Assembly (NCBI GenBank): GCA_943736015.1
Contig: OX031071.1
Location: forward strand, 43,340,619 to 43,404,618
DNA length: 64,000 nucleotides
Reading direction: 5' to 3'
DNA from: Tridacna crocea
Lineage: Eukaryota > Mollusca > Bivalvia > Cardiida > Cardiidae
Below, piece by piece: positions 2,249-64,000 of the stretch (its first letter is position 1; each line of letters begins with the position of its first letter). The notes below the pieces were generated by a model. The model saw only the letters and a program-made list of their open reading frames with translations. It was not told the origin of the DNA and did no database searches. Both the position numbers and the translations under genes were made by a program.

Positions 2249-2387
2249 TAGTAATCTGTCAATTGATAGGAAGCGTGTTTGATTGCAAAGCAATTTGCCG
2301 CTCTAATCAACTTGACCACCCGTTGTCATCAGTATATCATAAGATAAACTACCGTCAATGATATTAACAATTTTCTTAATTGACAAC
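2249..2387 (+). repeat. 139-bp direct repeat, left copy (candidate LINE target-site duplication)
   Basis: This segment begins TAGTAATCTGTCAATTGATA and ends TTCTTAATTGACAAC. It recurs without visible change at 5649-5787. The left copy abuts the 5'-truncated LINE reading frame and the right copy abuts that LINE's microsatellite tail, which is the geometry of a target-site duplication. Confidence 0.85.
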
Positions 2388-4071: not shown

Positions 4072-4089
4072 ACACGCCAGTGCCCTTAG

Positions 4090-5168
4090 CTTTCATCAAT
4101 TGCCTTCGGTCTTATTCTCTTGAACAATTTTGGTATGTATAAGAAATTTATTCTTGCTACAAGAAAATAGGCCTTTTGAAACATTGTGGAAAGGGGAGAT
4201 GATGCTGGTGGCCAGCATCTTCCCCCATTCTCACAATGCTTTCAACTTTATCAATTTTCATCTTTTGCCTTTGGTCTTATTTTCTTGAACAATTTTGATA
4301 TGTATAAGCAATATACTCTTGATACAGGGAAATAAGCCTTTTGAAACATTGTGGAAGGGGGAGAGTATGCTGGTGGCCAGCGTCTTCCCCCTTTCTCACA
4401 ATGCTTTCAACTTTATCAATTTTCATCTTTTGCCTTCGGTCTTATTGATATGTATAAGCAATATACTCTCGATACAGGGAAATAAGCCTTTTGAAACATT
4501 GTGGAAAGGGGAGAGGATGCTGGTAACCAGCGTCTTCCCCCATTCTTTCAACTTTATCTATTTTCATCTGTTGTCTTCGGTCTTATTCTCTTGAGCAATT
4601 TTGATATGTATAAGCAATATACTTTTGCTTCAGGGAAATAGGCCTTTTGAAACATTGTGGAAAGGGGAGAGGATGTTGGTAACCAGCTAGCATCTTCGCC
4701 CATTCTCACAATGTGTTTTCTACTTTTATCAACTCTCATACTTTGTCTGTGGTCTTATTCTCTTGAGCAATTTTGATATGTACATATAAGCAATATATCC
4801 TTGCCTCAAGGAAATAGGTCTTATGAAACATTGTGGAAAGGGGAGAGAATGCTGGTAGCCGGCATCTTCGCCCATTCTCACAATGCTTTCAACGTTTATC
4901 AATTTTCCTATTTTGCCTTCGGTCTTATCTTCTTGAACTATTTTGATATGTATAAGCAATATGCACTTGCTACAGGGAAATTGGCCTTTTTAAGCATTGT
5001 GGAAATGGGAGAGGATGCTGGTGACCGGCATCTTCGCCCATTCTCACAATGCTTTCTACTTTGCCAATGACCGAGATGATTGTTTTTCTTACATCCAATT
5101 TAACCTGTCGTCTGTAGATTCTTACAATTTGGTCTAGCTAAATATTTTGTCGTTTGGAAAGGGGCTAC
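4090..5168 (+). repeat. Tandem array of about six M1-derived units in the LINE 3' region
   Basis: Six units of roughly 150-176 bp repeat the motif 'GAAACATTGTGGAAAGGGGAG..GCTGGT..CCAGC.TCTTCCCCCATTCTCACAATGCTTTC' with a spacer 'GGTCTTATTCTCTTGAACAATTTTGATATGTATAAGCAATAT'-like sequence. ACATTGTGG-type motifs start near 4181, 4346, 4496, 4652, 4828 and 4994. The right edge (5095-5168) looks like an M1 right arm ending in GTCGTTTGGAAAGGGG. An M1 insertion in the LINE 3' UTR followed by local amplification explains the layout. Short open frames here are an effect of the repeats. Confidence 0.8.
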
Positions 5169-5263
5169 GTAACTTCGATTGGCTCAGATAATTGGCCAAA
5201 TACACAAAGTGTGGACCCCCACCCACTAACCCTTGCACTTCAACAAAAAGAGATTTGGGCTAT

Positions 5264-5492
5264 TTGACCCTTTCCCGAACAATCTCTGGTTTTTACGGGT
5301 CAGGTATAGAAGCCTTTCGAAGGCATTGTGGAAAAAGGAGAAAATCCTGGTAACCGGCGTTTTCTCCTTTCCCCACAATGTTTTCTACCCTATCATATAG
5401 AAGGGTCATCTTTTTGGCAACTGTTGATTTGTCATCTGTAAAGTGCTTTCAATTTGGTCTGGTCCAAAATTTGTCGTTTGGAAAGGGGTTAA
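5264..5492. mobile_element. M1 MITE, full length (229 bp)
   Basis: Ends are TTGACCCTTTCCCGAAC (left, TTAA mutated to TTGA) and GTTTGGAAAGGGGTTAA (right). The central palindrome is 'GGCATTGTGGAAAAAGGAG..' against '..CTCCTTTCCCCACAATG'. Length equals the other complete copies. Confidence 0.85.
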
Positions 5493-5648
5493 TCGGAAAT
5501 GGTTTACTCTAAAAAGATATCAGATAGTTATAAAATCACTGAATATACCGGAAATCTTGTTTTAACTTTGCTTGGTATTCGTTATTTCCCCTTTTTGTAT
5601 GATTTGTATACTTGGGAGAATAAAAGATTTGTCTTGTCTTGTCTTGTC
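5493..5648 (+). other. LINE 3' end: poly(A) signal and (TTGTC)n tail
   Basis: AATAAA is at 5619-5624, followed by about four TTGTC units up to the start of the second 139-bp repeat at 5649. A short pentanucleotide tail in place of poly(A) marks the 3' terminus of the 5'-truncated LINE. Confidence 0.8.
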
Positions 5649-5787
5649 TAGTAATCTGTCAATTGATAGGAAGCGTGTTTGATTGCAAAGCAATTTGCCG
5701 CTCTAATCAACTTGACCACCCGTTGTCATCAGTATATCATAAGATAAACTACCGTCAATGATATTAACAATTTTCTTAATTGACAAC
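5649..5787 (+). repeat. 139-bp direct repeat, right copy
   Basis: Same sequence as 2249-2387. It follows the (TTGTC)n tail directly and ends TTAATTGACAAC before unrelated sequence. Confidence 0.85.
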
Positions 5788-17651: not shown

Positions 17652-19829
17652 ACTGATATATCCATCTGTAACTTTATTTCAAATCTTTTGATTCACCTGT
17701 CAGCATATCACTTTTGACTTGTCCTTACTATTTTAAAGTTCTTCCTAATTGCATGAGGTGATATCATTAAACAGTAATCTGTTGCAGTTTACCACTTTTG
17801 GTCTTTAATATGTGTTTCATGACTCCCATCCCAACAAAAAATAAAAAAAACCTCCCATGCAAGTTGATTCAACTGTCCAATATCAGAAATTATTTTGGCC
17901 AGCTTCTGAATCAAACTCTGTATCCATGTGGCGATAAAATGGACGTTGCTCAGTGGCGAAGTGTTGGACCTGGAGGCTCCAGATTTAAGCCTCATTGTAG
18001 GCACTTGGTTTTTCATGGCTGAAAGACACTTAATGTTGAAATTGGCGAAAAACATCATTCGACCCATCATTCAATATCCTTGTGATGATATCTGGCAAGA
18101 ACAACTTCTGTTTTGTAGATTTACAGCAATTGAAAGCTTTCGGAGTGGTTTGAGATTATCCCTCAATCCCTCATTCCAAACTATCCGTTACTACCCAAAG
18201 GTATCCGTTATTGACCTAATTAGAGTGGTCGAAAAAGAAGATACTGTGTATCGCAAAACGATTTCTCATAAAAAAATGTGGACTATTTTCGAAAGATCAC
18301 ATATTTTGCTATCGATTGTTATCATTTATAATCCCATATCTGATTAATTAAAAACGCATGCATCGATAATTTCGTTAGCGATCCGCTACTGCCTAATCGA
18401 CTGTACCAGTAAACATACCCTGTGTAGATATGTATCTAGTTTACATTCCAAGGCATCATTCTGATGCACGTCATTTGCCCCAAAATATAAAGACTTCCTA
18501 CAGTTTCATCCCAATTTTAACTAACTAGTATAATTTACTTCCGGGTAATGAAATCGATTCAGGGTTACATATTAGCAATGTACTTTACCTTTCAAGGCTA
18601 TAATCTGATGGATTAACTATGTCCAAATCACGTAATCACTTCTAACTCGTTTGTTATAATTGACAGGAAAATAATCTAGCGGCAGGACTCGGTAAGAACT
18701 TCGTACAACAGGAGGACGGCATCCATTGTTGACATTCATTAACAGAGGGCGTATCATGGAAATACCGATATGGACCGGAACAAACAGGGACGTACCGGAA
18801 TGGACCGGTATAGAGGTAAGATACTATGAAAAATGTTACAACATGAAATGAATGGAAAAAAAAAACTATCTTTTCTAGGAGTAAGGAAAAGGTGGAATAT
18901 ATGAACAGGCCCTACTTAAAAGGCGGTTCTATGAATTTGAAAAAAAAAAAAAAAAACGGGAACGACGGGAAGGGACCAAATTTATATCAGAAGTATCAAA
19001 TATCGCAAATTTGAATCATCAAAATGAACCAGAACTAAATTTAATGGAAAATCCGATATGGACCTGCAAGGACCCTCAAAGGCCCTCGACTTAGGAACCA
19101 AGAAAATCGAGAACCGGCATAACTAATCAGAAACATTAAATATCATGAATGACTCATTTCGACAGCCGGTCATTTGGACACCCGGTCAATTCGACACTTT
19201 TTGGTCATTTCGACCCCCGGTGAATTTTTTTTGCAAAGTTTGGTCGTTTCGACACCCGATTTTTTTCCGAGTGTTATTTATAGATGAGATAACAAAATAA
19301 AACTACTTTAAATGTTTACTTTGTCGGATTTCAGTTTTTTTTTTAATGAGCGTGATTAAAAAATGTGTTTTTGTATTGTTTTACATGTATATCGATTCAA
19401 ATAATGGACAAAAGTAATCGGCAATGTCGAATTCGAAAGCGGAATGTCATTGCTTTTGCCGTTACATGTATATCCCATTACCTAGATAAACTTATCTGTT
19501 TTTTAATGTTCTATTCTTGGTATTGATTGATTGATTGATTGATCGATTGGTTTGTGGCCGACAGCACAACAGTCCATGCTTTCCTAGACAGTTTAAATGC
19601 TGTTTTTATCAATGTTCTGCTTTCTGTATCCATTTTTTTGCTGCAACCAGTGCACCTATCTATGTCGTTCTAAAGATCATTTTACCAGTGCTCCGCCAAA
19701 CTTTTATACTTAAAAAAATGCAATGGTCAGAGTCTGACAGAGTCTAAATATCTGATATCTGACTTTGACTTCTTTTTCATCATAATTCCAGTTATTTGGA
19801 GGCGACCCTTACACAAATCTGTGCTTTTC

Positions 19830-33772: not shown

Positions 33773-36365
33773 TTAAGAACCAATATGAAAATCATCATAT
33801 TTTGCAGGCATTTTAACTACTCTTCCAGATCTTGTCATGCTTGGTTTTTCTGTATGCAAATTACCCTGATCAGATGGCTTACATTGCTCTAGTACCACTT
33901 TTTCTTGGATATCCGCACAATCTTGATCACTTTCTGTAATGTTTGCTTTCGTTGGACGAATATGTTTTCTGTTCCGTCTGTATGTCTGTCCATTCTTTTT
34001 CTCAAGAACGAATGATCTCGGGCTTGAATGTTTACTAACCACTATGGCGGGTTCCCACTTTGTTGATTGTTCCCGTCGCATTAACACCTTATCTCCTGGT
34101 TCCAGATGTTTCTGCTCTTTACCACAATGTTTGTCGAAGTAACTCTTTTGCTTCATTTGAGAATATTCTTTGCGGCTTTGTACCACATCCGCATTACATG
34201 TATGTTGATTTGGCTTCAGCAAAGGTGATGTGACTGGCAACGTTGTTTTCAAACGTCTTCCTAAGAACATTTGAGCTGGTGATAAGCCTATTGGATTTAT
34301 AATGGTATCTCTATAGATCATAATAGACATATATGGGTCTTTGGCTTTTTTCAAGAGTGATTTTACAGTTTGTACACCTCTTTCGGCAAGCCCGTTGGAT
34401 TGTGGATACATCGGTGAACTGGTAGTGTGCAGAAAACCATAGTCTCTTGCAAACTTTTTGAAACTTTCTGATGCAAACTGGGGACCATTATCACTGTAAA
34501 CTTTGTCCGGAATTCCATACCTGGAAAACTGACTCTTCATATACGTGATAGTATTCTCACTCGATAGATTATCCAACTTAGCAATCTCTGGCCATGAACT
34601 GTATTTGTCTACTGTAATTAGATAATTGTTTCCCCGGAAAGCAAATAAGTCAACACCAATCACGGCCCATGGTCTATCTGGTAGTTCTGTTTTAATCAGA
34701 GGTTCTTTCGGATTTTTATTCTGATTCACAGCACATATTTCACATTTTGAAACGTGATTCTCTACTTCTTGTACCATCCCTGGCCAAAACAATGTCTCTC
34801 TAGCACGTGACTTACATTTGACAATACCAGTATGAGCCTCATGCACTTTTAGTAGCATTTCAGGTCTAAGTTTCTTCGGAATTATTAACTTATGCCCTTT
34901 GAATAGCATTCCGTCTATACATGTGATTTCATCTCGATAATTCCAGTATGGTTTTAACATTCCTGGGATTAATTCCTGCTTATCTGGCCAACCCTGTTCA
35001 ACAACTTTCCTTAGAATGTTAATCTCTTCATCGTTTTCAGTTGCTTCTTGAAATTCTCTGCGTTTCTCTTTAGATACTGGTAAGTATGTTAATAAATTGA
35101 TCGACAGCTCTTCAGAACCGAGATCTTCCTTGGTTTCATCCAGATATGCTCGACTAAGACAGTCCGATATGTACATCTCCTTACCCGGTTTGAATTTCAC
35201 ATTCAAATCATATCTTTGTAGACTCAACAGAATCCTTTGAAGTCTAGGTGGAGCCTGATGTAATGGTTTTGCAAATATCGACTGGAGTGGGCGGTGATCT
35301 GTTTCTACAAGAACTTCCTTTCCAAACACATATTGATGAAATTTGGTACATCCATAAAGGATTGCCAACGCCTCTTTCTCTATTTGAGCGTAGTTTCTTT
35401 GTGAATTAGTCAGTGCCCTAGAACCATAAGCGACTGGTTGCTCATTTTGTAGAATAACAGCTCCAAGACCTCCCTGGGATGCATCTACCTGAAGAGTAAT
35501 TGGTTGACTCTGATCATAATACTTAAGCACAGGTGCCTTAATAATGGATTCTTTCAGGCATTCATATGCTTCTTCCTGTTCTTTCTCCCAGTGCCACTGA
35601 ATATTCTTTTGAAGTAATTTTCTTAGTGGTTCACTCTTTTCTGACAGATTTTTGATGAATTTTCCTAAGTAATTCACGAAGCCTAAGAAAGTCATTAACT
35701 CTTTCACATTTTCAGGTTTTTTCATTCCCTTGACTGCTCTAACTTTCTCCTCATCAGGTTTTAAACCTTTGTTTGTGAGAGTGTGACCCACAAAACTAAT
35801 TTCTGTTTTCCTGAACTCACATTTAGCTTTGTTCAACCTGAGATTATTGTCATTTATTCTGTGGAGAACTTTATACAGTCTTGCGTCATGTTCTTCTCTA
35901 TTTGAACCTCATATGACAATGTCATCAATGATTGACTCACAGCCCTCAATATCTTGGACCATGGTGGAAATGAGTTTTTGGTACACTTCCGGTGCTGATT
36001 TGATTCCATAGGGTAACCTCCGAAAACTGTATCTGCCTAAAGGAGTATTCATAGTACAAAGTTTTTGTGACTGTTCATCTAATTCACACTGCCAAAAGCC
36101 ACAACTGGCATCCAGTTTACTAAAGATTTGGGCATTTGACATTAACGGTAGAATCTCCTCGATAGTTTTCATTGGATAGTGTTCTCTTTTAATCGCTCTG
36201 TTCAAATCTTTTGGATCCATACATATTCTCAATTTTCCATTTGGCTTTACGACTGTCACCATGGAGTTTACCCAATCCGTTGGTTTATCTTGTTTGACAA
36301 TAACATTCTGTCTCTCCATCGATTCTAACTCTTTCTTTATTTTTTCAACCTTCTGGCTGCTTTCC
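33773..36365 (-). pseudogene. pol: Ty3/gypsy retrotransposon pol (RT, RNase H, integrase) with one nonsense codon
   Basis: The upstream part (about 36365-35909) carries the RT palm: 'NGKLRICMDPKDLNRAI', 'SKLDASCGFWQ', 'RLPYGIKSAPEVYQ' and the IIDD catalytic box. A TGA at 35911-35909 interrupts three residues after IIDD, where family members usually carry Trp; the frame continues unbroken after it. The downstream 687 residues (numbered from 35836) give the RT thumb, RNase H (D118, E153, D180), a 'YISDCLSRA' linker, the integrase zinc finger (H332, H335, C365, C368) and the integrase core D396, D449 (SDNGPQF), E485. A basic tail ends near the 'SGRVVKMPAKYDDF' motif. Gag and protease are missing because the element is cut at about 36365 next to a SINE. 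It is a 5'-truncated, otherwise well-preserved copy; enzyme function would require passage through the stop. Confidence 0.92.
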
Positions 36366-49670: not shown

Positions 49671-51621
49671 GATAGGACACCGGCTCGACCTATTTCTTAC
49701 GCAGTAATGGGATTAATTCTTCTATCACATCTGACTACTATTGCGATGATGGTTACATGGAAACTCAGCTTGTGGCCTAGAATGAATATTGTGCGACGTA
49801 AAGCCCTCAACCCTCAACAATACCGACTTTTGACAAGGGCGGTTACATGTAAACTCAGCTTGTGGCCTAGAATGAATATTGTGCGACCTAAAGCCCTCAA
49901 CCCTCAACAATACCGACTTTTGACAACGGCGGTTACATGGAAACTCAGCTTGTGGCCTAGAATGAATATTGTGCGACCTAAAACCCTCAACCCTTTACCA
50001 CACAATACCGACTTTTAACAACGGCGGGGAAATAGCCTTTTGAAATCATTGCGGGAAAAGGAGAAAATGCTGATAACCGGCAACTAACAATGTTTTCTAC
50101 CTTTTCAAAGAACAAGGTACATTTTGAGTTAAACTGAAATTGTCGTCTGCAAGTACTTTCTATCTGGACAAAGCTAACCTTTTATCATCTTGTAAAGGGT
50201 TAAGAAAAGTACAGATTTGTGTAAGGGTCGCCTCCAAATAACTGGAATTATGATGAAAAAGAAGTCAAAGTCAGGTATCAGATATTTATGGGACTCTGAC
50301 CATTGCATCTTTTTAAGTATAAAAGTTGGGCGGAACACTGGTAAAATGATCTTTAGAACGACATAGATAGGTGCACTGGTCGCAGCAAAAACATGGATAC
50401 AGAAAGCAGAACATTGATAAACACAGCAATTAAACTGTCTAGGAAAGCATGTATTGTTTTGCTGTCCGCCACAAACCAATCGGTTGATCTATCAATCAAT
50501 CAATCAATCAATACCAAGAACAGAACATTAAAACACAAATAAGTTTATCTAGGTAATGGGATATAACGGCAAAAAAAATTGACATTCCGCTTTCGAATTC
50601 GACATTGCCGATTACTTTTGCCCATTATTTGAATCGATATACATGTAAAACAATACAAAAACACATGTTTTAATCACGCTCATTACAAAAAAAAAAACTG
50701 AAATCCGACAAAGTAAACATTTAAAGTAGTTTTATTTTGTTATCTCATCCATAAATTACACTCGGGAAAAAAAATTTGGTGTCGAAACGACCAAACTTTC
50801 ACCGGGGGTCGATGTGACCAAAAAGTGTCGAATTGAAGGGTGTCCATTTGAATGACCGGCTGTCGAAATGAGTCATTCATGATATTTAATGTTTCTGATT
50901 AGTTGTGCCGGTTCTCGATTTTCTTGGTTCTTAAGTCGAGGGCCTTTGAGGGTCCTTGCAGGTCCATACCGGATTTTCCATTAAATTTAGTTCTGGTTCA
51001 TTTTGATGATTCAAATTTGCGATATTTGATACTTCTGATATAAATTTGGTCCCTTCCCGACGTTCCCGTTTTTTTTTTTTTTTTTCAAATTCATAGAATC
51101 GTGTTTTAGTAGGGCATGTTCATATCTTCCACGTTTTCCTTACTCCCAGAAAAGATCGTTTTCTTTTTGCATTCATTTCATGTTGTAACATTTTTCATAG
51201 TATCTTACCTCTATCCCTGTCCATTCCGGTACGTTCCGGTTTGTTCCGGTCCATATCGGTATTTCCATGATACACCATCTGTTAATGAATGTCAACAATG
51301 GATGCCGTCCTTGTGTTGTACGAAGTTCTTACCGAGTCCTGCCGCTAGATTATTTTCCTGTCAATTATATCAAACGAGTTAGAAGTGATTACGTGATTTG
51401 GACATAATTAATCCATCAGATTATAGCCTTGAAAGGTAAAGTACATAGCTAATATGTAACCTTGAATCGATTTCATTACCCGGAAGTAACTTATACTAGT
51501 TAGTTAAAATTGGGATGAAACTGTAGGAAGTCTTTATATTTTGGGGCAAATGACGTGCATCAGAATGATGCCTTGGAATGTAAACTAGATACATATCTAC
51601 ACAGGGTATGTTTACTGGTAC
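49671..51621 (-). repeat. Segment A', inverted partner of 18406-20630
   Basis: Begins 'GGATAGGACACCGGCTCGACC' shortened and ends 'GGGTATGTTTACTGGTA'. It contains three 90-bp units (starts near 49761, 49851, 49941), the mirrored M1, (AATC)n near 50490-50512 and the 'GGTCCATATCGG' block near 51250. Confidence 0.85.
49987..50203. mobile_element. M1 MITE, mirror of 19830-20046
   Basis: TCAACCCTTTACCACACAAT at the left and TTGTAAAGGGTTAA at the right; 217 bp like its partner, with the same deleted arm. Confidence 0.8.
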
Positions 51622-52403
51622 CTTCAGTCTGAAGGTGTCTGCTCCGATGCTATTTTTGTTACTGTTCTTCGCAAAAGGTATTGTGGTAATTTTACTGGTT
51701 TGACTTTAGCCATTCCCGCATGTGCATAATGAGCGCCGGAGAATCCCGCGCCATAAAGGTAGCCTCAAACGATATCGAGAAGCCAAACTGTAAAGACGTG
51801 TCTTTGTATCTTGTGTTTATTGTCGTGCGGCATCTGCCTGTAGAAAAGACGACTAGCAGTTTTTGTGACCCTCGGAGGCGGACCAGTTACAAATAGGCAA
51901 GTCTGATTTTACAACAGTATGCAGGTTTCCATAACTGGATTGAAAATTCATATTTTTATCTACTCCAGCAGGGTAAGTAGGTGCCAAAGTTTCTAGCCCT
52001 GTAGAGTTTTTCATTCCAAATTCATATCATGGACGACTGTTATCTGCAAATGCTTTCAACTTGGACAGTTCTAACATTTTGTTGTGCGGTAAAGGGTTAA
52101 GTGCAGGATGACATGGTCATGGCTTTGAAAATAGCTCTGTGAAAAAGCAGCCTGTACAGTGACAACATTTGAGACTAGTCCAAATTGAAAGTATTTGCAG
52201 GCAACAAAATAAATATGATTCAAAAGTTTAAAATTGCTTTTGGAAGGTAGAAAACATTGTGGGAAAAGGAGAAATTGCGTCTTTCTCAGAGTCGTTAAAA
52301 GTCAGGATTGTGTGGTAAGGGGTTAAAATTTTTGGGTGATGGTGTGAAGACCAGTCACAAAAATAGCATCGGAGCAGACACCTTCAGACTGAAGGTAGTT
52401 TAC
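51619..52403. mobile_element. ~785-bp element with ~40-bp TIRs, TA-flanked
   Basis: TACCTTCAGTCTGAAGGTGT.. at the left is inverted at the right as ..ACACCTTCAGACTGAAGGTA, TIRs extending through 'CTGCTCCGATGCTATTTTTGT'. GTTTACTGGTA lies just outside both ends, so the target duplication is either TA or a longer direct repeat. Two M1-type ends (52099 and 52325) are nested inside. The first ten bases of the TIR are themselves palindromic. Confidence 0.65.
52038..52325. mobile_element. M1 MITE remnants inside the TA element
   Basis: A right arm 'TGCAAATGCTTTCAACTTGG' to GTGCGGTAAAGGGTTAA (ends 52099) and a second copy with 'GAAAACATTGTGGGAAAAGG' ending GTGTGGTAAGGGGTTAA (about 52325). Confidence 0.65.
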
Positions 52404-52720
52404 TGGTATTTTCGTTCTCGGTATTTTGTTGTTAAAGTCTTGGCCTCCTACCTTCAGTTTGATGTTATTTATCGGTACGGCATGATTCGGATGATTAAGA
52501 AGAGTACAAATGTTGAAGACCCTTCTGCTGAGGGCAAACAGATCTAACTGCAACCTGTGAGAGCTTTTACTTACAGTGCTACAACACTAATACTAGCTGA
52601 TGTGATCTTATAACATTGAAGTCTTAACCCTGAAAACAACTTATGACTGAATTTCAACACCCGCTAAATATACAAACAACACGACTCGGCCAATTCCATG
52701 AGAATGTATAACTTAATCAA

Positions 52721-52753
52721 CAATACAATACAATACAATACAATACCTTTATT
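52721..52753 (-). other. LINE 3' end: AATAAA and (TATTG)n tail
   Basis: On the minus strand AATAAA (52753-52748) is followed by GGTATTGTATTGTATTGTATTG, five pentanucleotide units. This sets the 3' terminus of the full-length LINE. Confidence 0.85.
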
Positions 52754-52857
52754 CACTCTGTTCCTTTTACAGAAAACAAGAGGTAAATGTACATGAAACC
52801 AATTTTAACGAGGCAAAAATTGTATTTAGACAAACATAGTTCAAGTTCGTAATGTAA

Positions 52858-52858
<1 letters not shown>

Positions 52859-52899
<41 letters not shown>

Positions 52900-52912
52900 T
52901 GGGGGGAGAGAG
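52859..52912. repeat. (GA)n / G-run tract in the LINE 3' UTR
   Basis: About 16 GA units followed by GGGGGGGTGGGGGG. The tract is about 10 bp shorter in unit 2 (59768-59810). Confidence 0.9.
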
Positions 52913-52971
52913 AGGGTTGTCTAATTATTAATGATAAGTTGCAAAGATTAGTAAATTTACTTTTACATCAT

Positions 52972-55900
52972 TTAAAAGGAGTTTATGATGATTTTGATAA
53001 ATTTACACAAATTTACAATTTCAGAACGGTCTGTAGAATTTACTAGACGTTCAAATTTAACGACATTATGTCGCTTTGAAATTTTTTTAGAAATTAATTT
53101 TTTTCTTTGATCACTGAATGAGTTACACTCAAAAATATAATGATACTCATCACCAATGGAACTATTACAGAGGTTGCAGATTCGTTCTCTGGTTTCAAGA
53201 TTTGACCATCTTCCTACTTCAATAGGTAATCTATGATTATTTGTTCTGAATTTTATCATGTATTTCAAAAGTGCAGGAGGAGTCTGAATTAAATATTTTT
53301 CCAATCCGAATTTCTTTTTTATCAATCTGTAAGTATGACAACTATCATTATTTTCGATTTTACTAAACCAGGAATTAATATAAAGATCTTTTAACTTTTG
53401 TTTTATTGTTAATTTTAACCATTTATCATTTGGAAAACTTTGACTATCCCAAATATTTATCAAGCCGCATTTGACAAGGATATTTTTGACATTTTTTATC
53501 CAAAGGAAAAGGGGTATATTTGACACGGTTTCAGAGTTACAATAAATGTTATAAATATGTCTGTATACATTTGTTACTAGATAATTATGTTTACGTAAAA
53601 TAATTTTTGACCAAAACGAGATGAATCTTGTTTCTATATCAATAGATAAAGGATAAACCCCAGTTTCTCCGTAGATGATATGGGTTGGAGTTGACTTTTT
53701 TATATGTAGTATGTGTTTTAAAAACTTAAGTTGGACTTTTTCTAGAATTTGGTTATTTTCGAAAGACCAAAGTTCGCACCCGTAAAGCAAGATTGGTTTA
53801 ACGGTTTTTTCGAATAAATCAATTTGAGTATCGATTGGTAGAGCAAGTCTTTTAATTTTCCGAAGTAAACTGTACATCGCTCGAGTAGCTTGATTTGCAA
53901 TTTCTTCTTTTGTTTTATAGAAAGAACCAGATCGACTAAAAATAATTCCGAGATATTTGTATTCGTTTAAAGTTTCTATTGGCGCCTGATTATACGTAAA
54001 ATTGTAGGTACCTTGTCTTCCTTTTGAAAAAACGACTACTTTTGATTTCATTGTATTGACTGTGAGTTTCCATGTGTTACAATAATTTTCATATAAGTCT
54101 AATGCGTTTTGTAAGTCGTCTGCCGTACTTCCGAGTAGCACTGTATCATCGGCATATAATAGTATAAACATTTTTAAGAATAAGTTGTAATCCTCATTTA
54201 ATTCATTCGGTATGCTAAAACCGTTACATACTCCTGAGTTATTAAAAAAGTCATGGAGATCATTTAAATAGATCGAAAATGAAATTGGCGATAAATTTTC
54301 GCCTTGCCTTAAGCCATTTAAACATGGGAAGAGATTTGAGCACGTTTTGCCGACTCGAACGCATGATTTTATGTCATTGTACATATTTTTGATAAGACGC
54401 AAGCATTTACCGTTAATATTTACTGATATTAGTTTGTGCCATAGACCATCTCTCCAAACTGTGTCGAACGCCTGCTTTAAATCGATAAACGCACAAAAAA
54501 GTTTTTGTTTGGACTTGAACGCTAACTGAATTAAAGAATGTAGTAAGAACATATTGTCTGTGGTTGAAAAACCTTTTCTAAATCCTGATTGGTAATCATG
54601 TATAATTTTATTGGATTCGACATATTTATGCAGGCGTGTGTTAAGAATACTGGTAAATAATTTTCCAAGACAGCTTAGAAGAGTGATCGGTCTATAATTT
54701 GAAGGGATTGTGGGATCGCCTTTGTTTTTATAAACTGGGTGTATAATACCAGAGGACCACGATTTTGGGAAAATACCTTTATCTAAAATTAAATTGAATA
54801 ATTTGAAGTAGACATGTTTAAGAGACACGTAACTGTACTTGATATGTTCGTTGAGTATTTTATCAATACCGCACGCTTTATTATTTTTCAAATTTTTTAA
54901 AGCTTTTTCAATTTCATCGTATGTTATTTCACAATTTAATTCATTTTCAGAATTCTCATCATTGATGTTTAAATTTGGCATATTATCTCCAATTTGTGAA
55001 GACGAATTTATATCTTTGAAATAATCGTGTAAGTCTGTAATACTACACTTTATATCGCTTTGAGGGCTTTCGGAATTCAGTATTTTCCAAAATTTTCGGG
55101 GGTTAGAATGTTTTGTATTTTTAATTTCATTAGCTATTTTTTCCCTGTCAATTCTAGAGTATTTTGACAATGTATATTTATAATTTTTACTGCATTTTTT
55201 AAGATTTGACTTATTTATTTCACTTTTGCGTAATTTATAATTCAATTTCGCTCTGTGAAATTTTTTCCTTGCTCTTTTACAATCGCCTTTAAACCAATTA
55301 GGTAATGGATTAATAGTTAAATTGTGTTTATGTAATGTGCAATAATGATTTGGAGATTTAAATGTTGTTGTGCCAAAGCTTTTTTCTGCAGTTTCCATGA
55401 ATAAACTACCAATACTTTCAACGACAGAATCTATGTCTTTTTGATAATCTGTACTCTCATGTGTTATTCTAGAAATCTCATCTAGAATTTTGTTTATATG
55501 GTCATTTTTTATATTTTTCTCGAATTCGTCTTTTTTAAAATGATTCCATGTTTTTATGTCAGTATTCTCTGTTTGTGCGCAAGTGCATGTCGCTTTCGTG
55601 TGGAAAGAAGTACATAATGATACAGAGCAGTGAACATCAGATAAAAGAGGACAAAAGTCCCTCACAGAAAGACAATCAATAAAACGAAAGAGACTAGAAC
55701 TACATAAAAAATAATCGATAGTACTGACGTTTCTTGATGTTACTTTACCGTCTAGGTCGCCTCTAGTTCTACCATTCAAAATGAATAAATTTTGTTCCTG
55801 AGCAAAGTCAATCAATTTATAACCGAGGTTATTCATTGATTGATCACAATTTTTCCTATTTACGTTCACATTTGTGTTTTCAAATGATAAAATTTCTTGA

Positions 55901-56448
55901 TTATATTCCTCAATTAATTCTTCCGAATTCAATGATTGGAGAATACATTCATTTACGGCGATGAAATCAGCCTTTTCCTTTGTGCGTGAGTTAAAGTCAC
56001 CAAACAGTAAATAATGTGAATATATATCATAGACCGAATCAATTTCTTCCTTGATTTCAGAGTAAGGATCATTGACAGAGTATGCTGAGTTCTCTGGGGG
56101 TACATATAGTACACCACAGAGAACATCACCTATCTCCGTCAATTTATTAGATAATGTAAACCAGAGTGCATGTTTACTTTTAATGTTCAGTATACTAACA
56201 TGTGAAGCAATACTATTTTTAACCAATAACCCTATGCCACCTGATTTCCTGTTTGTAAGAGCACGTCTATTATTACTGTAGAAAGTATAATCTTTAATGC
56301 AAAAATAATCGGTGTCGTCCATTTTTATTTCTTGCAGTCCGATAATGTCATAGTTCTTAATTATTTCTAAAAACTCGGGAATCTTTTGTTTGCTTAATAA
56401 GCCACAGACATTTAAAGTTAAAAACGTCAAGCATTTCGAGCCGTCCAT
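52972..56448 (-). CDS. LINE ORF2: APE endonuclease, reverse transcriptase, zinc knuckle
   Basis: Full-length 1158-residue ORF2. The APE-type endonuclease spans about residues 8-280, with N13, E40, D151/N153 (GDFN) and S270-D271..H273 at the usual catalytic positions. A basic linker of about 280-480 follows. RT has 'NYRPITLLSCLGKLFTSIL', 'YQSGFRKGFST', 'AFIDLKQAFDTVW', 'GLRQGENLSPISFSIYLND' and Y765-A-D-D768. A 'HRLPIEVGRW' motif precedes a CNLC..EYHYIFEC knuckle near the C-terminus. The start ATG lies 153 nt after the ORF1 stop, so translation of ORF2 would need reinitiation or an internal start. The residue after SPI is Ser where unit 2 and the 2.4-kb LINE have Leu. This is the only complete ORF2 in the window and the best candidate for an active element; the Ser substitution may reduce activity. 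Confidence 0.93.
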   Translation of the reverse strand: MDGSKCLTFLTLNVCGLLSKQKIPEFLEIIKNYDIIGLQEIKMDDTDYFCIKDYTFYSNNRRALTNRKSGGIGLLVKNSIASHVSILNIKSKHALWFTLSNKLTEIGDVLCGVLYVPPENSAYSVNDPYSEIKEEIDSVYDIYSHYLLFGDFNSRTKEKADFIAVNECILQSLNSEELIEEYNQEILSFENTNVNVNRKNCDQSMNNLGYKLIDFAQEQNLFILNGRTRGDLDGKVTSRNVSTIDYFLCSSSLFRFIDCLSVRDFCPLLSDVHCSVSLCTSFHTKATCTCAQTENTDIKTWNHFKKDEFEKNIKNDHINKILDEISRITHESTDYQKDIDSVVESIGSLFMETAEKSFGTTTFKSPNHYCTLHKHNLTINPLPNWFKGDCKRARKKFHRAKLNYKLRKSEINKSNLKKCSKNYKYTLSKYSRIDREKIANEIKNTKHSNPRKFWKILNSESPQSDIKCSITDLHDYFKDINSSSQIGDNMPNLNINDENSENELNCEITYDEIEKALKNLKNNKACGIDKILNEHIKYSYVSLKHVYFKLFNLILDKGIFPKSWSSGIIHPVYKNKGDPTIPSNYRPITLLSCLGKLFTSILNTRLHKYVESNKIIHDYQSGFRKGFSTTDNMFLLHSLIQLAFKSKQKLFCAFIDLKQAFDTVWRDGLWHKLISVNINGKCLRLIKNMYNDIKSCVRVGKTCSNLFPCLNGLRQGENLSPISFSIYLNDLHDFFNNSGVCNGFSIPNELNEDYNLFLKMFILLYADDTVLLGSTADDLQNALDLYENYCNTWKLTVNTMKSKVVVFSKGRQGTYNFTYNQAPIETLNEYKYLGIIFSRSGSFYKTKEEIANQATRAMYSLLRKIKRLALPIDTQIDLFEKTVKPILLYGCELWSFENNQILEKVQLKFLKHILHIKKSTPTHIIYGETGVYPLSIDIETRFISFWSKIILRKHNYLVTNVYRHIYNIYCNSETVSNIPLFLWIKNVKNILVKCGLINIWDSQSFPNDKWLKLTIKQKLKDLYINSWFSKIENNDSCHTYRLIKKKFGLEKYLIQTPPALLKYMIKFRTNNHRLPIEVGRWSNLETRERICNLCNSSIGDEYHYIFECNSFSDQRKKLISKKISKRHNVVKFERLVNSTDRSEIVNLCKFIKIIINSF

Positions 56449-56601
56449 TTGGGATACACTTGCAGATGACGTACCGTTACTGCCTTTATCACGTGAGCTA
56501 TTGCGTTCTAAGGGATCAGACTGGTTATTTAAAGTACCGCTAGCTTCAGATTTCGGACTGTCACGTGTTTCCCATGCTTTATTTGACCTTCCCGCACATT
56601 C

Positions 56602-58143
56602 CTAGTCATAGACCGGACCTCCCGCAACGTTTGAGCACGTGCCATCCAAAACAATAGGGTTTTCTCTTATCGGGTTCAATACTGAGTGCGCTTGCCCTAG
56701 TACATTCGAGACGATTACACTTTGCTCATCGAACATGTTCGATGATTCGGAAGTTTTGTACTTTTTTGAATTTTCTTCTTCCAGTGGCGATCTGGCCTTA
56801 TTCTTATGGCCTTGCGATGATTTTTGCAGTGTTTTCCTAATGACATCATGTTCTGCAAGACTCTGGAAACGATTTGATAATGGTACTGGTGGATCAAATT
56901 CCCGGCTTCTGCGCTGAGTATTCGATTGAGGTCGAGGGTCACGAGAGTGATATTCACTCATAGGTATACCGGGGTTGTCGGTTTTTTCCTCTGGTATATA
57001 CTGTGTACCGTTAATAAATAACTTGTCACGGATAAGCACTACTTTATTTTCTTTATTTGCCTTGAATTTTCTCATAACTGGGTAGAGGGTTTTCCGTTTT
57101 TGTTCGATTTCGTAAGGGAATTGTTCCCGCACTGTATATCCGTTTTTTTCTCTATTTAGATTGAATGATTCCTTTCTCACATATTCTCTGTCGGTATATC
57201 TTTCAAATTTTGCGACTATTGGCCTAGCATTCGGTTTATCCCTGCTTCCTCTTCTCGCGCCTAGCCTATGAACTCTATCAAAGACTATTTGATCTACTGA
57301 TTCTGGTGAGTTTGGCAGAACTTGGTTTTTCAAAAAGTTTCTCAATTCTGTTTCTGTATTTTCACCTGGTTTCTCTTCTATCCCAAAGAACAATAAGTTT
57401 TCTTGCATTGAACGGGTTTTCAATTCAAGTATTTCATTCTGCAGTTTTTCGTAATTTTGGTTCATAGTTTTCACGTTTTGGTCTAAGTTTTGGTTTATTA
57501 ATTTCAGCTCAGTAATCTCCTTCTCAGTTCGCTCCCTTGAGTCTATATATGCGTTAAACATGGAGCTCATAGCTTGACATGATGTTTCAAATTCTGTCAC
57601 TTGGGATGAAATTCTCTCATTTTCTTTTTTCAGTTTGTTTACGTCAGTTTGTACTTTTTCCATAATATTTTCAATTTTTGACAATTTTGATACGTTGTTT
57701 TCTATTTCTGTGAGCCTTGTGAGTACATTTGTATTAGTTATTTGTGTTTGTCTAAGTTCTTGCTGAATTTGTTGTAGAACTCCATATATCCCGCTATTTT
57801 GCATATCGGAGCGGGACATTATGTTTGTATTGTTCATGGCTCCTGTGTATAACGGATTGGTCACGGGGTATGATTGGTGAATACATTTTCCTGTACTATC
57901 AACTGTGGGTGGGGATGGTGCTGAGGATACAGATGGAATGTTTGCGGTCAGAGTTTTAGGGTTTTGGCTTACTTGCATGTTAGATTCTGTATTAATCTGT
58001 CCCTTTGGGTTCTCCTGAATAATGTTCGTTAACAGTCTATTTCGATTTGATCCCTCTTCAGCAAATCCCGGAGGCTTTGTAGTATTTTTTCCCGCCATAT
58101 TTGTTCCTTTGTTTGCTCCTTTGTTGTGTTTTTTGCCGGTCAT
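56602..58143 (-). CDS. LINE ORF1: coiled-coil RNA-binding protein, L1-ORF1p-like
   Basis: A 513-residue protein encoded upstream of ORF2. The N-terminal 1-115 is basic, polar and probably disordered. Residues 120-245 form a long heptad-rich coiled coil ('RLTEIENNVSKLSKIENIM'). Residues 247-325 ('ENLLFFGIEEKPGENTETEL', 'VFDRVHRLGAR', 'PIVAKFERYTDRE') have the RRM-like arrangement of L1 ORF1p. Residues 335-385 ('TVREQFPYEI', 'VVLIRDKLFINGTQY') correspond to the C-terminal domain. By family analogy it forms trimers that coat the LINE RNA and act as a chaperone. The ATG at 58143 is used because the frame upstream is closed by stops. No break is seen. Confidence 0.88.
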   Translation of the reverse strand: MTGKKHNKGANKGTNMAGKNTTKPPGFAEEGSNRNRLLTNIIQENPKGQINTESNMQVSQNPKTLTANIPSVSSAPSPPTVDSTGKCIHQSYPVTNPLYTGAMNNTNIMSRSDMQNSGIYGVLQQIQQELRQTQITNTNVLTRLTEIENNVSKLSKIENIMEKVQTDVNKLKKENERISSQVTEFETSCQAMSSMFNAYIDSRERTEKEITELKLINQNLDQNVKTMNQNYEKLQNEILELKTRSMQENLLFFGIEEKPGENTETELRNFLKNQVLPNSPESVDQIVFDRVHRLGARRGSRDKPNARPIVAKFERYTDREYVRKESFNLNREKNGYTVREQFPYEIEQKRKTLYPVMRKFKANKENKVVLIRDKLFINGTQYIPEEKTDNPGIPMSEYHSRDPRPQSNTQRRSREFDPPVPLSNRFQSLAEHDVIRKTLQKSSQGHKNKARSPLEEENSKKYKTSESSNMFDEQSVIVSNVLGQAHSVLNPIRENPIVLDGTCSNVAGGPVYD

Positions 58144-58334
58144 TTCACCTTTTCACTATTTTTTTTTCACTTACAGGAACGGTTTTAAATGTGCCAATGA
58201 CTTAATCCTATTTTTATATTTATTCCCGAAAAAAATCACAATATATCAATTAAGAAAATTGCTGAATGATTACTATTTTCCTAGAGCACGTAAAAAGTAC
58301 GTCCATATTGGTAGCCTCGTTTTCGTATTCCTTT
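58144..58334 (-). other. LINE 5' UTR; presumed 5' end at 58334
   Basis: Sequence between the ORF1 start and the unit junction. The junction TTCCTTT|CCTTGAAAGG marks where LINE sequence ends and the duplicated flank begins. No promoter motif can be supported. Confidence 0.5.
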
Positions 58335-58526
58335 CCTTGAAAGGTAAAGTACATAGCTAATATGTAACCTTGAATCGATTTCATTACCCGGAAGTAACTT
58401 ATACTAGTTAGTTAAAATTGGGATGAAACTGTAGGAAGTCTTTATATTTTGGGGCAAATGACGTGCATCAGAATGATGACTTGGAATGTAAACTAGATAC
58501 ATATCTACACAGGGTATGTTTACTGG

Positions 58527-59311
58527 TACCTTCAGTCTGAAGGTGTCTGCTCCGATGCTATTTTTGTTACTGTTCTTCGCAAAAGGTATTGTGGTAATTT
58601 TACTGGTTTGACTTTAGCCATTCCCGCATGTGCATAATGAGCGCCGGAGAATCCCGCGCCATAAAGGTAGCCTCAGACGATATCGAGAAGCCAAACTGTA
58701 AAGACGTGTCTTTGTATCTTGTGTTTATTGTCGTGCGGCATCTGCCTGTAGAAAAGACGACTAGCAGTTTTTGTGACCCTCGGAGGCGGACCAGTTACAA
58801 ATAGGCAAGTCTGATTTTACAACAGTATGCAGGTTTCCATAACTGGATTGAAAATTCATATTTTTATCTACTCCAGCAGGGTAAGTAGGTGCCAAAGTTT
58901 CTAGCCCTGTAGAGTTTTTCATTCCAAATTCATATCATGGATGACTGTTATCTGCAAATGCTTTCAACTTGGACAGTTCTAACATTTTGTTGTGCGGTAA
59001 AGGGTTAAGTGCAGGATGACATGGTCATGGCTTTGAAAATAGCTCTGTGAAAAAGCAGCCTGTACAGTGACAACATTTGAGACTAGTCCAAATTGAAAGT
59101 ATTTGCAGGCAACAAAATAAATATGATTCAAAAGTTTAAAATTGCTTTTGGAAGGTAGAAAACATTGTGGGAAAAGGAGAAATTGCGTCTTTCTCAGAGT
59201 CGTTAAAAGTCAGGATTGTGTGGTAAGGGGTTAAAATTTTTGGGTGATGGTGTGAAGACCAGTCACAAAAATAGCATCGGAGCAGACACCTTCAGACTGA
59301 AGGTAGTTTAC
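58527..59311. mobile_element. TA-flanked element, unit 2 copy
   Basis: Same TIRs and flanks as 51619-52403. Confidence 0.65.
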
Positions 59312-59628
59312 TGGTATTTTCGTTCTCGGTATTTTGTTGTTAAAGTCTTGGCCTCCTACCTTCAGTTTGATGTTATTTATCGGTACGGCATGATTCGGAT
59401 GATTAAGAAGAGTACAAATGTTGAAGACCCTTCTGCTGAGGGCAAACAGATCTAACTGCAACCTGTGAGAGCTTTTACTTACAGTGCTACAACACTAATA
59501 CTAGCTGATGTGATCTTATAACATTGAAGTTTTAACCCTGAAAACAACTTATGACTGAATTTCAACACCCGCTAAATATACAAACAACACGACTCGGCCA
59601 ATTCCATGAGAATGTATAACTTAATCAA

Positions 59629-59661
59629 CAATACAATACAATACAATACAATACCTTTATT
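59629..59661 (-). other. LINE 3' end of unit 2: AATAAA and (TATTG)n
   Basis: Same tail as at 52721, with the same number of pentanucleotide units. Confidence 0.85.
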
Positions 59662-59869
59662 CACTCTGTTCCTTTTACAGAAAACAAGAGGTAAATGTAC
59701 ATGAAACCAATTTTAACGAGGCAAAAATTGTATTTAGACAAACATAGTTCAAGTTCGTAATGTAAAGGAGAGAGAGAGAGAGAGAGAGAGGGGGGGGTGG
59801 GGGGAGAGAGAGGGTTGTCTAATTATTAATGATAAGTTGCAAAGATTAGTAAATTTACTTTTACATCAT

Positions 59870-62800
59870 TTAAAAGGAGTTTATGATGATTTTGATAAAT
59901 TTACACAAATTTACAATTTCAGAACGGTTTGTAGAATTTACTAGACGTTCAAATTTAACGACATTATGTCGCTTTGAAATTTTTTTAGAAATTAATTTTT
60001 TTCTTTGATCACTGAATGAGTTACACTCAAAAATATAATGATACTCATCACCAATGGAACTATTACAGAGGTTGCAGATTCGTTCTCTGGTTTCAAGATT
60101 TGACCATCTTCCTACTTCAATAGGTAATCTATGATTATTTGTTCTGAATTTTATCATGTATTTCAAAAGTGCAGGAGGAGTCTGAATTAAATATTTTTCC
60201 AATCCGAATTTCTTTTTTATCAATCTGTAAGTATGACAACTATCATTATTTTCGATTTTACTAAACCAGGAATTAATATAAAGATCTTTTAACTTTTGTT
60301 TTATTGTTAATTTTAACCATTTATCATTTGGAAAACTTTGACTATCCCAAATATTTATCAAGCCGCATTTGACAAGGATATTTTTGACATTTTTTATCCA
60401 AAGGAAAAGGGGTATATTTGACACGGTTTCAGAGTTACAATAAATGTTATAAATATGTCTGTATACATTTGTTACTAGATAATTATGTTTACGTAAAATA
60501 ATTTTTGACCAAAACGAGATGAATCTTGTTTCTATATCAATAGATAAAGGATAAACCCCAGTTTCTCCGTAGATGATATGGGTTGGAGTTGACTTTTTTA
60601 TATGTAGTATGTGTTTTAAAAACTTAAGTTGGACTTTTTCTAGAATTTGGTTATTTTCGAAAGACCAAAGTTCGCACCCATAAAGCAAGATTGGTTTAAC
60701 GGTTTTTTCGAATAAATCAATTTGAGTATCGATTGGTAGAGCAAGTCTTTTAATTTTCCGAAGTAAACTGTACATCGCTCGAGTAGCTTGATTTGTAATT
60801 TCTTTTTTTGTTTTATAGAAAGAACCAGATCGACTAAAAATAATTCCGAGATATTTGTATTCGTTTAAAGTTTCTATTGGCGCCTGATTATACGTAAAAT
60901 TGTAGGTCCCTTGTCTTCCTTTTGAAAAAACGACTACTTTTGATTTCATTGTATTGACTGTGAGTTTCCATGTGTTACAATAATTTTCATATAAGTCTAA
61001 TGCGTTTTGTAAGTCGTCTGCCGTACTTCCGAGTAGCACTGTATCATCGGCATATAATAGTATAAACATTTTTAAGAATAAGTTGTAATCCTCATTTAAT
61101 TCATTCGGTATGCTAAAACCGTTACATACTCCTGAGTTATTAAAAAAGTCATGGAGATCATTTAAATAGATCGAAAATAAAATTGGCGATAAATTTTCGC
61201 CTTGCCTTCAGCCATTTAAACATGGGAAGAGATTTGAGCACGTTTTGCCGACTCGAACGCATGATTTTATGTCATTGTACATATTTTTGATAAGACGCAA
61301 GCATTTACCGTTAATATTTACTGATATTAGTTTGTGCCATAGACCATCTCTCCAAACTGTGTCGAACGCCTGCTTTAAATCGATAAACGCACAAAAAAGT
61401 TTTTGTTTGGACTTGAACGCTAACTGAATTAAAGAATGTAGTAAGAACATATTGTCTGTGGTTGAAAAACCTTTTCTAAATCCTGATTGGTAATCATGTA
61501 TAATTTTATTGGATTCGACATATTTATGCAGGCGTGTGTTAAGAATACTGGTAAATAATTTTCCAAGACAGCTTAGAAGAGTGATCGGTCTATAATTTGA
61601 AGGGATTGTGGGATCGCCTTTGTTTTTATAAACTGGGTGTATAATACCAGAGAACCACGATTTTGGGAAAATACCTTTATCTAAAATTAAATTGAATAAT
61701 TTGAAGTAGACATGTTTAAGAGACACGTAACTGTACTTGATATGTTCGTTGAGTATTTTATCAATACCGCACGCTTTATTATTTTTCAGATTTTTCAAAG
61801 CTTTTTCAATTTCATCGTATGTTATTTCACAATTTAATTCATTTTCAGAATTCTCATCATTGATGTTTAAATTTGGCATATTATCTCCAATTTGTGAAGA
61901 CGAATTTATATCTTTGAAATAATCGTGTAAGTCTGTAATACTACACTTTATATCGCTTTGAGGGCTTTCGGAATTCAGTATTTTCCAAAATTTTCGGGGG
62001 TTAGAATGTTTTGTATTTTTAATTTCATTAGCTATTTTTTCCCTGTCAATTCTAGAGTATTTTGACAATGTATATTTATAATTTTTACTGCATTTTTTAA
62101 GATTTGACTTATTTATTTCACTTTTGCGTAATTTATAATTCAATTTCGCTCTGTGAAATTTTTTCCTTGCTCTTTTACAATCGCCTTTAAACCAATTAGG
62201 TAATGGATTAATAGTTAAATTGTGTTTATGTAATGTGCAATAATGATTTGGAGATTTAAATGTTGTTGTGCCAAAGCTTTTTTCTGCAGTTTCCATGAAT
62301 AAACTACCAATACTTTCAACGACAGAATCTATATCTTTTTGATAATCTGTACTCTCATGTGTTATTCTAGAAATCTCATCTAGAATTTTGTTTATATGGT
62401 CATTTTTTATATTTTTCTCGAATTCGTCTTTTTTAAAATGATTCCATGTTTTTATGTCAGTATTCTCTGTTTGTGCGCAAGTGCATGTCGCTTTCGTGTG
62501 GAAAGAAGTACATAATGATACAGAGCAGTGAACATCAGATAAAAGAGGACAAAAGTCCCTCACAGAAAGACAATCAATAAAACGAAAGAGACTAGAACTA
62601 CATAAAAAATAATCGATAGTACTGACGTTTCTTGATGTTACTTTACCGTCTAGGTCGCCTCTAGTTCTACCATTCAAAATGAATAAATTTTGTTCCTGAG
62701 CAAAGTCAATCAATTTATAACCGAGGTTATTCATTGATTGATCACAATTTTTCCTATTTACGTTCACATTTGTGTTTTCAAATGATAAAATTTCTTGATT

Positions 62801-63346
62801 ATATTCCTCAATTAATTCTTCCGAATTCAATGATTGGAGAATACATTCATTTACGGCGATGAAATCAGCCTTTTCCTTTGTGCGTGAGTTAAAGTCACCA
62901 AACAGTAAATAATGTGAATATATATCATAGACCGAATCAATTTCTTCCTTGATTTCAGAGTAAGGATCATTGACAGAGTATGCTGAGTTCTCTGGGGGTA
63001 CATATAGTACACCACAGAGAACATCACCTATCTCCGTCAATTTATTAGATAATGTAAACCAGAGTGCATGTTTACTTTTAATGTTCAGTATACTAACATG
63101 TGAAGCAATACTATTTTTAACCAATAACCCTATGCCACCTGATTTCCTGTTTGTAAGAGCACGTCTATTATTACTGTAGAAAGTATAATCTTTAATGCAA
63201 AAATAATCGGTGTCGTCCATTTTTATTTCTTGCAGTCCGATAATGTCATAGTTCTTAATTATTTCTAAAAACTCGGGAATCTTTTGTTTGCTTAATAAGC
63301 CACAGACATTTAAAGTTAAAAACGTCAAGCATTTCGAGCCGTCCAT
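59870..63346 (-). pseudogene. LINE ORF2, unit 2 copy with an in-frame UGA
   Basis: Same protein as 52972-56448, but the codon after 'LFPCLNG' is TGA (61210-61208), replacing TTA. Residues 1-712 (63346-61208) retain the endonuclease and the N-terminal half of RT; the downstream frame continues unbroken to 59870 with an intact YADD box. Other substitutions are few: Ser to Phe in 'SWFSGI', Glu to Lys and Ala to Thr in 'KKEITNQ', and Leu in 'SPILFS' where unit 1 has Ser. The stop removes the RT catalytic half. Confidence 0.9.
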
Positions 63347-63499
63347 ATGGGATACACTTGCAGATGACGTACCGTTACTGCCTTTATCACGTGAGCTATT
63401 GCGTTCTAAGGGATCAGACTGGTTATTTAAAGTACCGCTAGCTTCAGATTTCGGACTGTCACGTGTTTCCCATGCTTTATTTGACCTTCCCGCACATTC

Positions 63500-64000
63500 C
63501 TAGTCATAGACCGGACCTCCCGCAACGTTTGAGCACGTGCCATCCAAAACAATAGGGTTTTCTCTTATCGGGTTCAATACTGAGTGCGCTTGCCCTAGTA
63601 CATTCGAGACGATTACACTTTGCTCATCGAACATGTTCGATGATTCGGAAGTTTTGTACTTTTTTGAATTTTCTTCTTCCAGTGGCGATCTGGCCTTATT
63701 CTTATGGCCTTGCGATGATTTTTGCAGTGTTTTCCTAATGACATCATGTTCTGCAAGACTCTGGAAACGATTTGATAATGGTACTGGTGGATCAAATTCC
63801 CGGCTTCTGCGCTGAGTATTCGATTGAGGTCGAGGGTCACGAGAGTGATATTCACTCATAGGTATACCGGGGTTGTCGGTTTTTTCCTCTGGTATATACT
63901 GTGTACCGTTAATAAATAACTTGTCACGGATAAGCACTACTTTATTTTCTTTATTTGCCTTGAATTTTCTCATAACTGGGTAGAGGGTTTTCCGTTTTTG
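63500..64000 (-). CDS. LINE ORF1, unit 2, C-terminal part (cut by window edge)
   Basis: C-terminal 167 or so residues of the ORF1 protein, from 'KTLYPVMRKFKANKENK' to 'NVAGGPVYD', matching unit 1. The frame is still open at base 64000; the coiled coil and start lie outside the window. Confidence 0.85.
   Translation of the reverse strand, partial: QKRKTLYPVMRKFKANKENKVVLIRDKLFINGTQYIPEEKTDNPGIPMSEYHSRDPRPQSNTQRRSREFDPPVPLSNRFQSLAEHDVIRKTLQKSSQGHKNKARSPLEEENSKKYKTSESSNMFDEQSVIVSNVLGQAHSVLNPIRENPIVLDGTCSNVAGGPVYD

Follow-up and report, generated by a model that had tools for sequence, protein, structure and literature searches.

Tandem proviruses that share long terminal repeats (LTRs) arise by unequal exchange between these repeats. 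Here we describe a tandem array of long interspersed nuclear elements (LINEs) in the bivalve Tridacna crocea that very probably grew in a similar way, after a single LINE had inserted with a target duplication of 1,294 bp and the two copies of the duplicated target had exchanged unequally. The array begins in a stretch of 64,000 nucleotides (termed the window in the following; C16:43340619-43404618, where C16 is contig OX031071.1), and the genome searched comprised 1.05 Gb in 31 contigs. During target-primed reverse transcription, a second-strand nick that lies downstream of the first one leads to a duplication of the target (PMC2881922). According to excerpts of a report on human LINE-1 (written out here to keep it apart from L1, one of the array LINEs), insertions in cells deficient in nucleotide excision repair often had duplications of >100 bp, 18 of which were >1 kb, and two of >1.5 kb were recorded in complemented cells too (PMC5223499). 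The authors of that report noted that such repeats may recombine and thereby remove LINE-1. In a human tumour, a tandem duplication with LINE-1 at its joint has been explained by joining between sister chromatids, as stated in the excerpted account (PMC7058536).

The locus in T. crocea shares features with each of these systems and differs from each. As with LINE-1 in the repair-deficient human cells, direct target copies of >1 kb flank a LINE. There, however, the insertions were those of an engineered human LINE-1 in cultured cells, whereas the present LINE is a different one, seen as a natural copy in an assembled genome; and while the excerpts of that report foresee loss of the element (PMC5223499), the array would be the gain product of an exchange between the duplications. 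As in the tumour, a segment is duplicated with one LINE at the joint, but the tumour event was somatic and of megabase scale (PMC7058536), whereas the duplication considered here covers 1.3 kb and would have been multiplied later. With tandem proviruses the array has in common the order repeat-element-repeat-element-repeat, as it results from exchange between flanking repeats, except that its repeats are host target DNA and not parts of the element. The kind of event is known; what is new is to find it in a genome, as a natural case that has empty sites, bears a trace of recombination and has grown into a tandem LINE array. In the open-access literature, screened by title and the start of the abstract, no LINE array of such origin was recognised, which is weak evidence of novelty.

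We designate the 1,294-bp flank F, the array LINEs L1, L2 and L3, and the sequences to the left and right of the array A and B, respectively. A genome search with F located its copies at C16:43392045, 43398953, 43405851 and 43412749 (start positions), with spacings of 6,908, 6,898 and 6,898 between successive starts. The order is A-F1-L1-F2-L2-F3-L3-F4-B, i.e. four F copies in direct order with three LINEs between them, and the array both opens and closes with a copy of F. In window coordinates, F1 occupies 51427-52720, on the 3' side of the first LINE. It is followed by L1 at 52721-58334, full-length by alignment to other copies and with its (TATTG)n tail at 52721-52745, and by F2 at 58335-59628. 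L2 starts at 59629, leaves the window at 64000 and continues to C16:43405850; F3, L3 and F4 then extend to the end of the array at C16:43414042, 9.4 kb past the window end. All three LINEs are on the minus strand, and their lengths are 5,614 bp (L1) and 5,604 bp (L2 and L3). The end of F is ambiguous by 2 bp, CA being common to both sides. When the extended stretch was compared with itself at a shift of one unit, the identity was 99.78% over 15,102 bp. This self-similarity of the tandem units is far beyond chance and confirms the original prediction of a tandem duplication of a ~6.9-kb unit with a LINE. The prediction had further placed the sequence CCTTGAAAGG beyond the 5' end of the LINE in unit 2, and in fact L1, L2 and L3 are each followed by it at their 5' ends; it had also proposed to read past the window for a repeat of F, and the next sequence is indeed F again (F3). 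The repetition of the LINE is real as well, although there are three LINEs and not two as first described.

F and its surroundings are part of a segment that is repeated along C16 at about 29-43 Mb, so its paralogs can serve as natural controls (empty sites). A query that joined the final 600 bases of A, F and the initial 600 bases of B was aligned to the sequences of 11 paralogous segments fetched from C16. Ten of them contain a single F and run through both joints, A|F and F|B, and the sequence of the array LINE had no match in any of the 11. By coordinates, an A|F joint with the same strand orientation precedes 27 of the 29 F|B places at a distance of no more than 8 kb. The gaps between the two joints measure 308-6,425 bp and contain no LINE copy among the LINE matches listed. 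Together, the single F at the empty paralogs indicates that F was single before the LINE arrived.

The paralog pieces across a junction are 92.7-96.4% identical to the array query, a range that omits two second, older-looking A|F pieces (84.5-85.5%) in the segments L026 and L031. The four F copies of the array, by comparison, differ pairwise at no more than 6 of 1,294 bases. Moreover, a dispersed repeat of ~235 bp is present in all four F copies and was not found in any of the four fetched paralogs that have the surrounding stretch (L007 and L028-L030); the other seven of the 11 are without that stretch. Both the close similarity and the common ~235-bp repeat argue that F was duplicated at this locus. 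The flanking copies correspond to the single-copy sequence of the empty sites and start and end at the LINE ends. The assignment of as many as 9 bases at the 5' joint is uncertain, because the alignments to other full-length copies start at LINE base 6 or 10; the first 9 bases of L1 (in LINE sense), which adjoin F2, do not align to the copy at C16:36.3 Mb. These sequence comparisons support the interpretation of F as a target site duplication of 1.29 kb, in agreement with the idea that a target duplication of >1 kb had seeded the array.

The F copies also differ in an informative manner. F2 and F3 are exactly alike, as are L2 and L3, whereas F1 differs from F2/F3 at 4 of the 1,294 positions and F4 differs from them at 2. 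We polarised the six variable positions (145, 342, 608, 821, 1197 and 1274) with the paralogs as outgroup. At F145, F2, F3 and F4 have a derived base (ancestral in 11/11 outgroup paralogs), and the same three copies have a derived base at F608 (ancestral in all four outgroup paralogs having a base there). At F1274, on the other hand, the derived base is that of F1, F2 and F3, and all 10 outgroup bases are ancestral. F342 has no outgroup base and is therefore unpolarised, and the F1197 variant is private to F1. The F821 variant is private to F4 within the array, and it is also present in one outgroup row with poor alignment (L032); for segments without the inner insert of F, the outgroup base at this position comes from some other match. 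Since F145 and F608 conflict with F1274, any tree of the four copies requires recombination or a repeat mutation. F2 and F3 are mosaics with an F4-like left part and an F1-like right part, the switch being located between 608 and 1274. By this pattern of bases they look recombinant, as predicted for an exchange of a right-hand F with the left-hand F of another chromosome. Repeat mutation at F1274 instead of recombination is possible but less likely. The unequal exchange between target duplications that had been postulated for this locus thus agrees with the mosaic structure of F2/F3 and with the renewed occurrence of F past the second LINE.

L1 and L2/L3 are separated by 17 substitutions and a 10-bp repeat difference. 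Eight changes are derived in L1 and nine in L2/L3, which corresponds to a divergence of about 0.15% each, part of which may be allelic. A tail of five repeats and an identical 5' end are found in all three, which indicates multiplication at the DNA level in place of several separate insertions. Growth from two to three LINEs either took place very recently or reflects a loop in the assembly.

We consider it highly probable that F-L-F was formed by insertion of a LINE with a 1,294-bp target duplication and that unequal exchange between the F copies then gave the array. The steps would be as follows. Target-primed reverse transcription would first have placed a full-length LINE at the right-hand boundary of F (in window orientation). 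Its newly made 5' end would then have been linked to chromosomal DNA on the far side of F, at a distance of 1,294 bp, resulting in F-L-F. This could have occurred by a second break or nick ~1.3 kb from the first one, or by joining of the cDNA to a broken sister chromatid; both would give the same sequence. The two F copies could subsequently have acted as LTRs do. Unequal homologous exchange in which a left F paired with the right F of a different chromatid or homologue would produce F-L-F-L-F, and a second, very recent exchange would produce F-L-F-L-F-L-F. In this scheme we infer the position of the second nick, the involvement of a sister or of a single chromatid, and crossing-over as opposed to gene conversion.

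The element itself is, by its predicted domains, a non-LTR retrotransposon (LINE) with an endonuclease of the exo_endo_phos type that is encoded together with the reverse transcriptase in one open reading frame (ORF). ORF2 of L1 (52972-56448, minus strand) is open over 1,158 amino acids (aa) and matches the profiles PF03372 (endonuclease; E 5.7e-8) and PF00078 (reverse transcriptase; E 3.1e-38). Among solved structures, human LINE-1 ORF2p is nearest to it (E 1.1e-26). ORF1 of L1 (56602-58143, minus strand) is an open frame of 513 aa without a Pfam match at E 0.001. ORF2 of L2 (59870-63346, minus strand) is broken by a premature stop into open frames at 61208-63346 and 59870-61069, and L3, which is identical to L2 over 5,604 bp, has the same stop. 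Only unit 1 is thus complete in its reading frames, and the earlier description of a complete LINE holds for this unit, which is open in both frames, but not for unit 2 with the stop in its ORF2. Hallmarks of LINEs are present in the (TATTG)n 3' tail, in 12 5'-truncated copies elsewhere and in the lack of terminal repeats of its own.

Three other full-length copies are located at C16:36.30 Mb, C8:7.64 Mb and C2:21.17 Mb (97.8-98.9% identity); a fourth and a fifth family copy lie in pieces on C6 and C17, and there are shorter copies besides. A comparison of the full-length copies for long flanking duplications had been suggested, and it turned out negative: in 6.3-6.5 kb on each side of the three copies, with all hits checked, there was no direct repeat near both ends. 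The C8 copy has a pair of diverged repeats near one of its ends (63 and 95 nt long, with 74-79% identity), but they do not constitute a duplication. No long duplication was flagged in about 800 bp on each side of the 12 truncated copies; four of them had end-proximal matches of 7-8 nt, which in one (L035) lay at both junctions. We also sought the 3' flanks of seven of the 15 family copies genome-wide. Among the best 40 of 2,017 candidates there was no second place with an identity of at least 98%, and for five of the seven flanks their own place was the sole match listed. The copy at C16:36.3 Mb has a high-copy flank that accounted for most of the listed matches, and a diverged second copy could be missed.

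A different LINE within the window does have a long duplication. This element at 2249-5787 is apparently 5'-truncated, has a (TTGTC)n tail and contains a reverse-transcriptase frame that is 43% identical to ORF2 of the array LINE over 578 columns. The 139-bp duplication that flanks it (2249-2387 and 5649-5787), already pointed out in the original prediction, is an exact direct repeat (139/139 bases), and its empty sites were found: all 40 places scored (the best 40 of 1,075 candidates) matched the joined flanks uninterrupted, with 92-95% identity. This shows that the 139-bp target duplication is also real. It resembles the array in the related LINE, the exact target duplication and the empty sites, but it is about nine times shorter and was not multiplied. 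Within 50 kb there are two long duplications, one of 139 bp and the other of 1,294 bp, which is suggestive but does not give a rate. The notion that long duplications are usual here therefore applies to this one other LINE in the window and does not extend to the own family of the array LINE.

Several points weigh against the history proposed above. The empty sites are paralogs and not the same locus in another individual. One of the 11 segments, the inverted copy L032 inside the window, has A|F only and thus lacks one junction, and two of the 29 F|B places are without a paired A|F junction. In six of the 10 empty sites F comprises only ~0.5 kb, the inner transposon-like insert being missing, and in L028 it is interrupted by about 2.5 kb of other DNA. 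The right side of the recombinant pattern depends on a single polarised site (F1274). Unit 2 is identical to unit 3, which an assembler looping twice could also yield. Finally, there is no long duplication in the 15 other copies, and the array locus is an exception in its family.

Joining of the cDNA to a break in the sister chromatid, resulting in a LINE-mediated tandem duplication, is a sub-case of the insertion with target duplication and does not exclude it. We give this course a sizeable chance, though clearly below even. It is consistent with the 15 family copies without long duplication, which fit a rare accident better than a habit, and the excerpted tumour study describes such joining for a 22.6-Mb tandem duplication with one LINE-1 at the joint (PMC7058536). 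However, the sequence does not favour it over a long stagger, and 1.3 kb is within the range of target duplications given for human LINE-1 in the excerpts (PMC5223499). The number of units might be an assembly artefact, caused by a loop that was traversed again or by haplotypes that were joined, in which case the true locus would be F-L-F or F-L-F-L-F. We regard this as rather unlikely. The lack of a single difference between L2 and L3 and between F2 and F3 is in its favour, and the 0.3% between L1 and L2 could be allelic. Yet the LINEs fall into two types (separated by 17 sites and 10 bp) and the F copies into three (F1 and F4 differing from F2/F3 at 4 and 2 positions, respectively), and the F-L-F core with its empty sites is independent of the unit count.

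The absence of long target duplications elsewhere in the LINE family would suit an ordinary insertion without such a duplication, after which an unrelated tandem duplication or the reintegration of a circle put F on both sides. This would require that a second, non-homologous joint hit the LINE end, whereas the LINE ends meet the F ends on both sides and F forms both termini of the array; we consider this history very improbable. Least probable of all is that the LINE landed exactly at the junction of an F pair already in tandem, which would yield F-L-F directly and might seem plausible as F sits in a chromosome-specific repeated segment; we rejected it since F is single in 10 of the 11 fetched paralogs, no F-F pair occurs among the F matches listed (best 40 of 5,043 candidates), and the insertion exactly at the joint would be a coincidence.

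Three further candidates were rejected. F as an LTR of the element is contradicted by the three other full-length copies without a flanking repeat, and because F also exists without the LINE, the locus does not conform to an LTR retrotransposon. Repeated insertion at one spot was dismissed because tail length and 5' end are common to all three LINEs, and long duplication as a habit of the family was dismissed on the 15 other copies tested.

F contains an older insert resembling a DNA transposon (51619-52397 in F1) with inverted ends of ~55 bp (F 193-247 versus 917-971 inverted, 95%), which some of the paralogous segments carry and others do not. The ~235-bp dispersed repeat, delimited by genome matches, is nested in this insert (51682-51916) and matches other chromosomes too. 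The C16 segment itself is present in dozens of copies in both orientations that are 83-97% identical (e.g. L007, L023-L031 and window 18544-19125, minus strand). The A|F matches listed are all on C16 (best 40 of 226 candidates), and flank B partly matches outside C16 as well (74-81%). In two of the segments an extra A|F border with 84.5-85.5% similarity is located upstream of the main one, at a distance of ~1.3 kb in L026 and 3.9 kb in L031, and hints at an older repetition within the C16 segment. Left of the array, a 90-bp unit occurs in three tandem copies (49751-50020). Elsewhere in the window, an open frame of 687 aa (33773-35836, minus strand) looks by eye like the polyprotein of an LTR retrotransposon (RNase H, integrase). 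Direct repeats were also seen at other loci. Those at C6:46738000-46757999 (L019, L020) are two identical 655-bp copies 1,113 bp apart, with an insert bounded by TTAAGG/CCTTAA-like ends, and are shown neither as LTRs nor as a LINE duplication; those at the fetched C17 locus measure 206 bp.

Cutting and priming of the second strand are an open step in the life cycle of LINEs. As far as the excerpts of the cell culture study go, target duplications of >1 kb have so far come from cultured human cells, most of them repair-deficient (PMC5223499). The locus described here indicates that a target duplication of >1 kb can arise in an inherited genome, survive and seed the tandem growth of a LINE, and it presents the empty sites, both junctions and the recombination trace at base resolution. 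It also holds two warnings for the interpretation of similar loci: a repeat that flanks a LINE can be target DNA instead of an LTR, and LINE arrays need not stem from repeated insertion. As a tentative and still doubtful extension, long target duplications may provide LTR-like handles by which a LINE is converted into a tandem array, which would constitute a satellite-like route, and second-strand cleavage may be loose in more than one LINE family.

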